DNA of 64,000 nt from NCBI GenBank assembly GCA_001600355.1, contig BCJU01000005.1, positions 615,205 through 679,204 of the forward strand, in the 5' to 3' direction. The DNA is from Meira nashicola (Eukaryota; Basidiomycota; Exobasidiomycetes; Exobasidiales; Brachybasidiaceae). The notes beneath the pieces were generated by a model that was not told the DNA's origin, made no database searches, and saw nothing but the letters and a program-made list of their open reading frames with translations. Below, piece after piece: positions 12,516 to 18,131 of the stretch (position 1 is its first letter; the number at the start of each line of letters is the position of its first letter). The position numbers were made by a program, and so were the translations under genes.

Positions 12516-13316
12516 AAATGTACTATTAATCAAAACAATGATGTATAACAGCAATACTATGAAATAATCCTCTCGAAAAGACTGCATATATCCGGAGAAT
12601 ATTTTCAAAGATGGCCGTGCTGGTCGTGCGCGCTTTAATCTTTGCACTATCTTTTGCTCAGTGGGCGTCAAAATCTACACGCTAAATATCTCCTTGGCCG
12701 ATGGATGAACGCCGTGACGTAGAGGGTACTGAAGAATAAGTTTAACCGAAGTCGATATTTTTAAACGGATAAATTATATTTTAGAGTTTTATAGTCAATC
12801 TTTAACGCCACCTTTGAATATGTGATTGATGTCATTAGTGCAAAATGATGGGCGTAGATCTTTGTTCCCCAGACTAATCGGTTATTTATTCTGTCAAAAC
12901 TGTCAATGGTACACATTGTTTTAGTATCGGCCAACATATTCCACTAAATTACTCCTTCCGAGATAGCGACGGCCAGATGAAATTCTGGCTAGATGATCTT
13001 TCGGCCAAGGATTTTATATGGTGATGATGACAATGACAATCAGGCATTAAATCTGTTTGGCGTCATCATTTCTTGGCAAGAGACACTAATGGTTAAACAA
13101 CATCTAAACGATGGCTTGAAACATATTTCTATAGAAGACATGGTAGGGAATATAGAGAGCTCTATATAGTATAGTAGAAATCGAGAGATGAAAAGGTATA
13201 AAAAGAAGCCAACTTGTTCATCTTCATAAATTTTTTTTCCTCATCAATTCAATTCTAATCAAATCAAATCAACACTTTTATTAAACAAATCCAATCAAGA
13301 CTTTTTTCAAACGAAC
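12516..13316. other. intergenic; upstream region of the defensin-like gene
   Basis: About 800 bp without a convincing frame. The last 120 bp hold the TATA element of the 13317 gene and a pyrimidine/AT-rich leader. Confidence 0.5.
13197..13204 (+). promoter_or_regulatory. TATA box of the tandem defensin-like gene
   Basis: TATAAAAA 113 bp upstream of the ATG at 13317, followed by an AT-rich leader of TCAAT/CAAATC repeats typical of highly expressed fungal genes. Confidence 0.5.
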
Positions 13317-13794
13317 ATGAAGTTTTTCACTGCATTCACCATTTTGGCAATCACAGTTGCAGCTTCAATCTCTGCTGCTCCTTCCAATGATGGAACATTC
13401 AGCATCGTTGAACGTGATACTCCAACATGTTGGTTGGACGATAAGATCGGAGGTGTGAGTGTGTTAAACAGAAATGATCGAATCATAACCATGTTGACTG
13501 ACTTTCTTCTTCTAACAGACATGTGACTTCAAATGTGGCCAACGTGGTGCAAAGTCAGGTAGTTGCAAAACAGGAACATGCGTTTGCAGTTATAGTAAGC
13601 GAAGCGAAGAACACGTTCAAGCTAAACGTGATCAAGATGTTCAACAATTTCATAAACGTTGGTCATGCCAAATTGGTGAAATTGGAGGAAAAGGTTTGAG
13701 TAATTCTTTATGTTCAGCTTCTTGTGCAGATGCTTCAGGCGGTAAGAAGGATGGTTACTGTGATAAGAATGATACTTGCATTTGCAAAGCTTAA
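13317..13794 (+). CDS. secreted precursor with two defensin-like CS-alpha-beta units
   Basis: Two exons: 13317-13454 and 13519-13794; the 64-bp intron starts GTGAGT and ends CTAACAG, phase 0. The spliced product is 137 residues. A signal peptide covers about residues 1-20. Two six-cysteine units follow, each with the C..CxxxC....C...CxC spacing of cysteine-stabilised alpha-beta defensins: unit 1 runs from PTCW through TCDFKC to TCVC; unit 2 from WSCQ through LCSASC to TCICKA at the C-terminus. Between them are three Lys-Arg sites (SKR, AKR, HKR), so a Kex2-type protease could release two peptides and discard the spacer. Fungal defensins are usually antimicrobial; that role is inferred. No alternative family fits both units as well. 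Confidence 0.75.
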
Positions 13795-13912
13795 TTTTTT
13801 TTCACTCGTAAATTATGTATCGGATTGCAATCAATTTAATTAAACTTGCCGGCAAGTTCTTTCTTTATTTACTTATCGTGTGATGAATATTGTCTGTATT
13901 AAATGCTCTCCA

Positions 13913-14582
13913 TTATGCTTGTCGTTTTGTTGGATCGTCGACTGGAGGTCCATCTGGAGTCCATACTGTTTGGTAAAAGAGAAAACAATCTTTTGGTTAG
14001 CTCAAAAGCAAAGAGGAATGAAGTCGTCATACAATACTCACATAATGTATCAAAGCAACCACACGTAGAATTTCCTTGTAAAAGACATAATCCAGTCCCA
14101 TCCGAATATAATTCTCTCGCGCTGATTTGACCTGAACCAGCATTTGCACCACATTTCAATAACCCTTCTGCACGTGGAATAACAGATTGTGCAGTCACTT
14201 GAACGTTTGAAGGATCTGTGCTAGGTGGATATGCGTAAGAAAGACAACAATTTCCCTTGCAACCAACAATACGAGAGCTAGCAGCACGTTGATAACCTTT
14301 ATCGGTGATATAGGCGCATGTTTCTTTATTGACGAACGTTTTACTCAATTCAGCTCCATCGTTTGCCAATAATGCTTGACAATCGTTCAAAGTTGCAGTA
14401 GAAACAGGATCGGTTGAAACGGTACAATTCAATCCATCAGCCTTGTATGGAACAGCGACAGAAGTTTGTTTGTCACCTTGTGATTTTTCATCAACTGCTG
14501 GGGCGGGTGATCCAAATGCGAAAACGAAAGAAAGAGCGAAGAAGATGGCAGTGATTGCCAAATATTTAGTATGATATGACAT
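13913..14582 (-). CDS. secreted cysteine-rich protein, 10 Cys
   Basis: Exon 1 14582-14042 and exon 2 13965-13913, with a 76-bp intron starting GTGAGT and ending AACAG; splicing replaces a read-through tail by YWTPDGPPVDDPTKRQA and a stop. The product has 197 residues. The ATG at 14582 (MSYHTKYLAI) is preferred over the upstream one at 14621 because it starts directly at the signal peptide. The mature part has ten cysteines including an adjacent pair (CKGNCCLSY), so five disulfides are possible. It lies tail-to-tail, 118 bp from the defensin-like gene. I do not recognise the family; an extracellular protein of unknown role. Confidence 0.65.
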
Positions 14583-15478: not shown

Positions 15479-16345
15479 TTACCACTTTTGCTCTTTTTCA
15501 TCTTTGAAATATCCGCCAGAACGACCATTCAAATCTTGTAATGCCAACATGACTGGAGTTGCAGCGCCTTGATCGAGTGATAGAACACCTTTACCTTTGG
15601 TCATTCCGGTGTTTACGTAACCTGGACAGCAACAATTAACTGTGATTGAACGTAATCTTTCATCTTCACTTTTACGTAATTCGTTGGAAAATGCACGAGT
15701 GTATGCTATGATGCATGCTTTACTGCAACTGTATGCTGCTTCTTTCCATCCTTTTTCCTTGTGATCACCTTTTTGAACTGCTTTAAGGTATTCATCAGCA
15801 AGTGATTCAGCTTCTTTGACTGTGCTTACTGCTCTAAATCGTCTAATGATCTCATCCGAATAACCTTGTAATGAACCTGCCATAGATGCTAAAATCACAA
15901 TTCTTGCATTTTGTTGAAGGATTGGTAATAATTCATTGTTAAATGCGATCACATCATGAAAGTTGGTTTGGAAAGTCTTCTTTACAACATCTTCATTGAA
16001 TCCATCCATAGCAATACCTGCATTATTGATCACAGTATCCAAGCCGCCATCACGTTCAACAATGTATGCGATTGCATTCTTTCTACTTTGAACATCATTC
16101 ATGTCTAATTGACAAGCTTGCAAAGATGTATTGTTTGACTGTAATGTTTTGCCTAATTCATTCTGAAGTGATTTGATTGCATCTTCTCCTTTTTGTTGAT
16201 CACGACTGCCCATGTAAATCTTCAATCGTTCTTCTTTACCTTTTGTTGGTAAAAATTCTCGTGCTAATCGTGCAACGATTCCATATCCGATTCCTCTATT
16301 AGAACCTGTGACTAATATCACTCGTGTTGCTGATGCTGTTGACAT
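15479..16345 (-). CDS. short-chain dehydrogenase/reductase, carbonyl reductase-like
   Basis: 288 residues, single exon. Classical SDR features: TGSNRGIGYGIV, the NADP(H)-binding TGxxxGxG at residues 13-20; NNAGIAMDG (NNAG) near residue 110; a Ser in the ASMAGS segment; and YSCSKA, the catalytic YxxxK. The spacing and the extra helix before the catalytic Tyr resemble carbonyl reductase 1-like SDRs, which are monomeric, cytosolic and NADPH-dependent with broad ketone or quinone substrates. Substrate not predictable. No signal peptide. Confidence 0.88.
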   Translation of the reverse strand: MSTASATRVILVTGSNRGIGYGIVARLAREFLPTKGKEERLKIYMGSRDQQKGEDAIKSLQNELGKTLQSNNTSLQACQLDMNDVQSRKNAIAYIVERDGGLDTVINNAGIAMDGFNEDVVKKTFQTNFHDVIAFNNELLPILQQNARIVILASMAGSLQGYSDEIIRRFRAVSTVKEAESLADEYLKAVQKGDHKEKGWKEAAYSCSKACIIAYTRAFSNELRKSEDERLRSITVNCCCPGYVNTGMTKGKGVLSLDQGAATPVMLALQDLNGRSGGYFKDEKEQKW

Positions 16346-16911: not shown

Positions 16912-18131
16912 TTATAACAGTCGTGCCTTACGTTCGCCTCTCTGTAAAGGAGGTAAACTTCTTTGCTTTCTCCACCAATTTGAACGATAAATGATTTCTT
17001 CATCTAATAAGAACCACCATTTTTGGGCAAATTTTTCTCCCACTTCCCATGCGAATGGATCAGAATAATCCGTTCCCCAAATTAAGAATGCAGGTTCTGG
17101 ATTATTCGGATTTCCGGGTAAACCTGATTGAAAGCAATCGTCACATAAATCACCTTCATCTATAATTGAACTTGCTAACATTGTTAAAATCTTTTCGCGC
17201 ATTGAAGGCCAAGGGAAAGCAATATCGATAAAAGGATGATGATCAATACGTAATTGTGCTTCTGTTGGATGCATATTTGTCGGTATATCTTCCCAATATA
17301 ATCGTTTTTCCATTAAAGTGGAAGGAGGTGGTAAATGAGTGAAACTGTTGTTTTCGCCAAATGGATTTCTTGGTGAATTAGCAGAAGAAGAAGAAGATGC
17401 ATTGGATTCTGCCCTTTTTCTTAATCCAATCGAATTTGTTCCAACCATTGAATTCCTCCTTCTTATTTCGCCAAATCGTTTATCTGATTGATACTTTGAC
17501 CAATCTTGAGAAATAAAACTTGAAGAAGAAGGATCACATGCGAATCCGACATCCAATCCAATCATTCTTGCATTCTCCACAAAAGATTTTGCAAAATTAG
17601 AAAATGGTAAAGTTAAACCTGAAGAGGAAGTACCTTCTTGAATAGGTGAATGATGATATGCTAATGCGACTACTTCTGACCAAGTTAAATTAGCTAAATT
17701 AAAAGTAGGATTTTGTGATGCTGCTAAAAGTCTTCTTCCTAAGATTGGATCAAGAGGTGATGATCTTTGATGTTGAAAAGCAGGTGCATAAGCAGGATGA
17801 GGTGCGGTTGGATATTGTGGTTGTTGATGTTGATAAAATCCATTCGGGTATATAGTTGGTGATCTTTGTTGTTGTTGCATGGTAGTATCTTTCGGACTAC
17901 TTCCTGTTGTTGATGTACTTCCATTTCTACTTCTTTCTTTTTGTACTTTTCTTTGTTGCTGTTGTTTTGTTGATCTTAACGCTTCTTCTGCTTTTTTTCC
18001 ATTCTCTTCTTCTCTCTCCATCTCCTTTGTGCGTCTTTATTTTGTTGTCTTCTTATTTCCATATATTCGTCTGAAGTGATTGATGATTTACGTGAAGTCG
18101 GCATCGTGCCGCCTCTTTCAGTTGCCAACAT
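16912..18131 (-). CDS. bZIP transcription factor with DUF3425 C-terminus, reading frame interrupted
   Basis: Two overlapping frames. From ATGs at 18131 or 18104 one frame encodes RRQQNKDAQRRWREKKRMEKK, a good bZIP basic region (N-x2-A-Q-R-x2-R-x-K), then stops 21 bases past an A7 run (minus strand; 17992-17998). The second frame, open from 18021 to 16912 (369 residues), has a Gln/Ser-rich stretch and a C-terminal domain with FPWPSMREKI, CDDCFQSG and EEIIYRSNWWRKQR, typical of DUF3425, which in fungi follows bZIP regions. The DUF frame cannot extend upstream because of a stop. One extra A in the A7 run would join both parts. Either an assembly indel, a true mutation, or frameshifting; see findings. 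Confidence 0.65.

Follow-up and report, generated by a model that had tools for sequence, protein, structure and literature searches.

A gene of Meira nashicola with a predicted intron, and its probable product, a secreted precursor with two different defensin-like units

Can a gene whose uninterrupted reading frame stops after 69 amino acids encode a precursor from which two different defensins would be released? This question is raised by a locus (13317-13794, forward strand) located in a window of 64,000 nucleotides, which is the whole stretch of DNA analysed here and corresponds to positions 615205-679204 of contig C5 in the 17.9-Mb genome (20 contigs) of Meira nashicola. A first-pass annotation had proposed that the removal of a 64-bp intron yields a protein with a signal peptide and two six-cysteine units separated by three Lys-Arg sites, and that, because of this intron, plain ORF calling would miss the larger part of the protein. 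On re-reading of the sequence, the coordinates of the gene and of the intron were found to be exact, and the spliced frame has a signal-like start, both units and the three Lys-Arg sites; the short ATG-initiated frame also bears out the claim that simple ORF calling misses most of the product.

The joined frame (Table 1) encodes 137 amino acids with 12 cysteine residues, which are arranged in two groups of six (positions 38, 48, 52, 62, 67, and 69, and positions 96, 111, 115, 127, 133, and 135). Its N-terminus is hydrophobic and resembles, by eye, a signal peptide. With respect to splicing, 27 different GT..AG removals of 40-150 bp leave the frame open to the TAA stop codon and two of them retain all 12 cysteines. 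The removal of 13455-13518 is the only one that combines a consensus donor, an open frame and the complete set of cysteines. The alternative that also conserves the 12 cysteines (13461-13518) uses a weak donor, GTGTTA, and would add two residues that are found in neither of the homologues described below. The phase-0 intron falls a single residue ahead of Cys48; in the structure model of one of these homologues, P0003, this is close to where the helix of unit 1 (helix 44-53) begins. Phase-0 introns have been described in the helical region of several fungal defensin genes (PMC4165938).

Table 1. Features of the two-unit gene and its upstream region (window coordinates; residue numbers refer to the spliced protein).
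Feature	Position	Strand	Remarks
Putative TATA-like box (TATAAAAA)	13197..13204	+	120 bp upstream of the ATG; read directly in the sequence
Exon 1	13317..13454	+	ATG at 13317; signal-like peptide (about residues 1-21), propeptide to Arg33 and start of unit 1, including Cys38; cleavage places predicted
Intron (64 bp, phase 0, GTGAGT...TAACAG)	13455..13518	+	Donor GTGAGT at 13455, acceptor AG at 13517-13518; P0002 and P0003 align over the junction with no gap there
Exon 2	13519..13794	+	Remainder of unit 1, spacer, unit 2 and stop codon (TAA, 13792-13794)
Defensin-like unit 1 (residues 34-72)	13416..13596, intron inside	+	Cysteine spacing 9-3-9-4-1; sub-threshold Toxin_3 match; CS-alpha-beta matches for unit 1 in the model of the C. 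bombacis relative
Spacer (residues 73-93)	13597..13659	+	Lys-Arg at 73-74, 82-83 and 92-93; acidic pieces between the sites
Defensin-like unit 2 (residues 94-137)	13660..13791	+	Cysteine spacing 14-3-11-5-1; sub-threshold Defensin_2 match at 107-135

A search over 5.8 billion proteins (E up to 10; 10 candidates scored) returned two homologues. P0002 has 133 amino acids and is 70% identical over 93% of the query (E 8.5e-51), and P0003, which is Ceraceosorus bombacis CBOM_04347, has 141 amino acids and is 56% identical over 77% of the query (E 1.5e-34); the UniRef name of the latter begins, as listed, with "invertebrate-defensins family protein". Both proteins are colinear with the window protein, and conserved residues lie without gaps on both sides of the splice junction. 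The cysteine spacing within the units is identical in the window protein, P0002, and P0003 as far as each sequence extends (12, 10, and 12 cysteines, respectively). The gene is very probably real, and the first-pass reading of it sound. A profile made from the three sequences detected no relatives beyond P0002 and P0003 at E up to 10 among 2,308 candidates, and no Malassezia protein was returned by the sequence or the profile search, both of which require shared 5-residue words.

The conservation of the three sequences is not evenly distributed. Pairwise identities are 33/39, 25/39, and 25/39 in unit 1 and 30/37, 24/44, and 25/37 in unit 2 (P0002 lacks the last seven columns), so that the units are 55-85% identical by pair, against 38-48% for the spacer (10/21, 9/21, and 8/21, plus 4, 5, and 9 gapped columns). 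The signal part shows 10/20, 11/20, and 12/20 identities. A dibasic pair, either KR or RR, is found at each of the three spacer places in all three sequences, and all of them possess Arg33. Thus, the units are conserved while the spacer drifts and yet keeps its cleavage sites, as expected of a processed precursor, in what is a small sample of three sequences.

P0002 lacks the last two cysteines: it ends after the tenth one, and its final three residues are unlike those of the window protein and P0003. This end could be explained by the end of a contig or by an intron in the last loop. P0002 was also considered as a proof of splicing, since its 1,060-bp contig (source 'lgn') contains no intron at the junction, as would be the case for a transcript. 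However, the stop after the tenth cysteine fits a contig end or a last-loop intron, and this sequence was therefore set aside as undiscriminating.

The fungal CS-alpha-beta framework is given in the abstract of PMC5234102 as Cys1...Cys2-X3-Cys3...Cys4...Cys5-X1-Cys6, and both units fit it. The curated cut-off of Pfam PF01097 (Defensin_2, arthropod defensin) is 20.4 bits; P0003 exceeds it (23.1 bits), whereas the spliced window protein scores 15.2 bits (17 for exon 2 alone) and no match to this family was obtained for P0002 at E up to 1. NCBIfam yielded no match for any of the three members. The best PDB sequence matches of unit 2 are sapecin (E 0.062) and insect defensin A (E 0.064). These matches are weak (the best E is 0.062 by sequence and 0.025 by profile), and the lists also include lysozyme and streptavidins. 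In a BLASTP comparison of the two units, 25 columns were aligned with 40% identity (E 6e-05). This E-value stems from the short subject of 44 residues and from the cysteines, and it is no demonstration of a recent internal duplication.

Structure models lacking the helix-sheet fold would have counted against the first-pass reading. Neither of the two models obtained, one of them of P0003, is of this kind, as a helix-strand-strand order is seen in every unit; with mean pLDDT values of 54.5 and 64.5, however, these models are too weak to confirm the fold strongly. Part of P0003 unit 1 was modelled at pLDDT below 50. Weak PDB fold matches of the models were mostly small peptides of the CS-alpha-beta type, with no Foldseek E reaching 0.001 and no VIA-align Z above 4.6.

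Two controls addressed the frequency with which such cysteine patterns arise by chance; both are generous, since the patterns were defined after the sequence had been seen. When all six frames of the window were scanned for CX3C..C..CXC, two matches were found, both inside the gene. Among 100 first-order random windows, 90 contained no match, eight contained one and two contained two (mean 0.12), so that the count of this half-pattern in the real window was equalled by 2 of the 100 random windows. When residues 22-137 were shuffled 200,000 times, two full six-cysteine patterns never appeared, and at least one pattern was present in 1,313 shuffles. The homologues that share the layout are stronger evidence than these controls.

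The gene was the only copy detected in the genome when this was searched with P0003 and with the exon-2 protein (P0001). A family of paralogues was thus discarded, as both searches matched this gene alone. The genome search with Defensin_2 gave one match of 15 positions on another contig (15.3 bits, E 0.49), which is below the cut-off and was taken as chance; in control genomes, Defensin_2 matches were found in 3 of 14, none above the cut-off. The Defensin_2 genome search missed the window's own gene and is therefore too insensitive to exclude other defensins. The three genome searches score the best candidates only and ignore introns.

The surroundings of the gene were also inspected. The window contains no Rfam match at the gathering score and no tRNA according to ARAGORN. 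The convergent neighbour (13899-14582, reverse strand) also encodes a secreted-looking, cysteine-rich protein, for which Pfam gave nothing at E up to 0.01; judging from a GTGAGT donor at 14041, that gene may have a short intron close to its 3' end. A neighbouring gene (15479-16345, reverse strand) codes for a short-chain dehydrogenase that is 100% identical to protein P0004 (source 'jgi'), so that this fungus or a very close relative seems to be represented in other sequence collections. The nearest named relative of the dehydrogenase is from Exobasidium rhododendri (56%, among the best 120 of 798 matches), which, like the C. bombacis homologue, points to the Exobasidiomycetes or their vicinity. 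Beside it, the gene at 16912-18036 (reverse strand) encodes a protein with a DUF3425 domain.

The interpretation that best accommodates these results is the one put forward at first pass, a tandem and processed pre-pro-defensin, as indicated by the spliced frame, the two frameworks, the dibasic sites and the presence of the same plan in two relatives. The gene is single-copy as far as searched. Its product is probably a secreted pre-pro-protein in which two CS-alpha-beta defensin-like units, different from each other, would be processed to two antimicrobial peptides. Fungal Kex2 cleaves after Lys-Arg, and carboxypeptidase trims the ends. In the proposed mechanism, the signal peptide would direct the precursor into the secretory pathway, each unit would fold on three disulphides, and a Kex2-type protease would cut after the Lys-Arg sites, while Arg33 may mark the end of an N-terminal propeptide. 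After trimming of the basic ends by a carboxypeptidase, one peptide of about 39 and another of about 44 residues would be released, together with two short acidic spacer pieces, and both peptides would be exported to act on competitors, as antibacterial or antifungal agents. That the transcript is spliced, that the precursor is cleaved and that its products act on microbes are predictions.

One alternative concerns the last step of this scheme. The net charges of the units (K+R minus D+E) are +1 and 0, that is, near neutral, and it is suggested in the accessible part of PMC5234102 that antimicrobial activity may no longer be present in most of the Zymoseptoria members. Some other fungal defensins are also without antibacterial action (PMC4165938). 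It is therefore possible, if rather unlikely, that these are peptides of defensin fold whose main role lies in development, in stress fitness or as secreted factors directed to a host, and not in the killing of microbes. However, recombinant AfusinC of Aspergillus fumigatus is antibacterial although it is anionic, inhibiting most of the Gram-positive strains assayed at 4-64 ug/ml (as described in the portion of PMC6181372 at our disposal), so that net charge cannot decide on an antimicrobial role.

A doubtful alternative is that the protein is not cut and acts as a single two-domain defensin with a linker, as described for plant MtDef5 and avian AvBD11 in sources available in part. Such two-domain defensins do exist, and the models run a long helix through the spacer, at low confidence; against this, a dibasic pair is maintained at three places in all three sequences even though neither the residues nor the length of the spacer are constant. 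A wrong splice model, a decayed gene or a chance pattern is very improbable: the short unspliced frame and the different, shorter C-terminal end of P0002 would fit such a reading, but the homologues are colinear over the junction with residues conserved on both sides, and the shuffles never reproduced the double cysteine pattern.

If a processed pre-pro-defensin is accepted, its two peptides would come from one message. It is conceivable, but improbable, that they are delivered in a fixed 1:1 ratio to different targets, the short-loop unit acting perhaps on a membrane or channel of competing fungi and the long-loop, insect-defensin-like unit on bacterial cell-wall synthesis. The weak matches of the short-loop unit tend towards short scorpion-type and insect peptides. 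Were this two-target reading true, the fungus would counter competitors of two kinds simultaneously. Both peptides merit antimicrobial testing as candidates, and the small set of homologues offers a test case for fungi that deliver two antimicrobial peptides from one precursor, which has so far been a prediction in the literature consulted, part of which was accessible in sections only.

The first-pass annotation had implied that the tandem layout was new, as fungal defensins are usually single-domain. This implication does not hold, because precursors with two defensins were published in 2014, including some from the same class: PMC4165938 describes five fungal precursors, each of which could yield two defensins (maglosin, beauvesin2, manisin, pochlasin2, and asosin), and the two-domain Bizyarsin of Zymoseptoria appears in the sections of PMC5234102 available to us. 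Nothing on two-domain precursors was found in the accessible parts of PMC6394349 and PMC10040121. In the literature searched, which excludes most subscription papers, there was no paper that contained both Ceraceosorus and defensin and none on the gene studied here.

Like the window gene, beauvesin2, manisin, pochlasin2, asosin, and Bizyarsin carry two defensin domains per precursor, but they belong to Ascomycota (PMC4165938 and the available sections of PMC5234102); the first four of them pair an fDEF4 N-terminal unit with an fDEF3 C-terminal unit (table in PMC4165938). The AfusinC precursor is of similar size, and, as stated in the portion of PMC6181372 at our disposal, the tested peptide is C-terminal (109-146, the predicted mature part) and is preceded by a long pro-region (20-108) that is termed a pro-peptide.

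The closest published case is that of maglosin1 and maglosin2 from Malassezia globosa (Ustilaginomycotina, Exobasidiomycetes; PMC4165938). As with the window gene, the fungus belongs to the Exobasidiomycetes and one precursor could free an N-terminal and a C-terminal defensin by losing a spacer propeptide. The maglosin units have 40-41 residues and a net charge of +0.2 to +2.7, which is low like that of the window units (table in PMC4165938). However, going by the published description, the maglosin units are apparently all fDEF2 (PMC4165938), whereas the units described here have unlike loops (9-3-9-4-1 and 14-3-11-5-1). By layout and dibasic sites, the window gene agrees with the maglosin type, with two defensin units and a spacer propeptide between them. 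C. bombacis CBOM_04347 is orthologue-like, since it shares with the window protein the layout, the cysteine spacing within units and the three dibasic places, differing in an inter-unit stretch that is five residues longer and in the last dibasic pair, which is RR. As the two-defensin layout is known in the same fungal class, the window gene represents a further member of a kind that is not new, and knowledge of this kind of precursor as such is left unchanged by it; together with P0002 and the C. bombacis protein, the window gene extends two-defensin precursors to Exobasidiomycete-like fungi beyond Malassezia.
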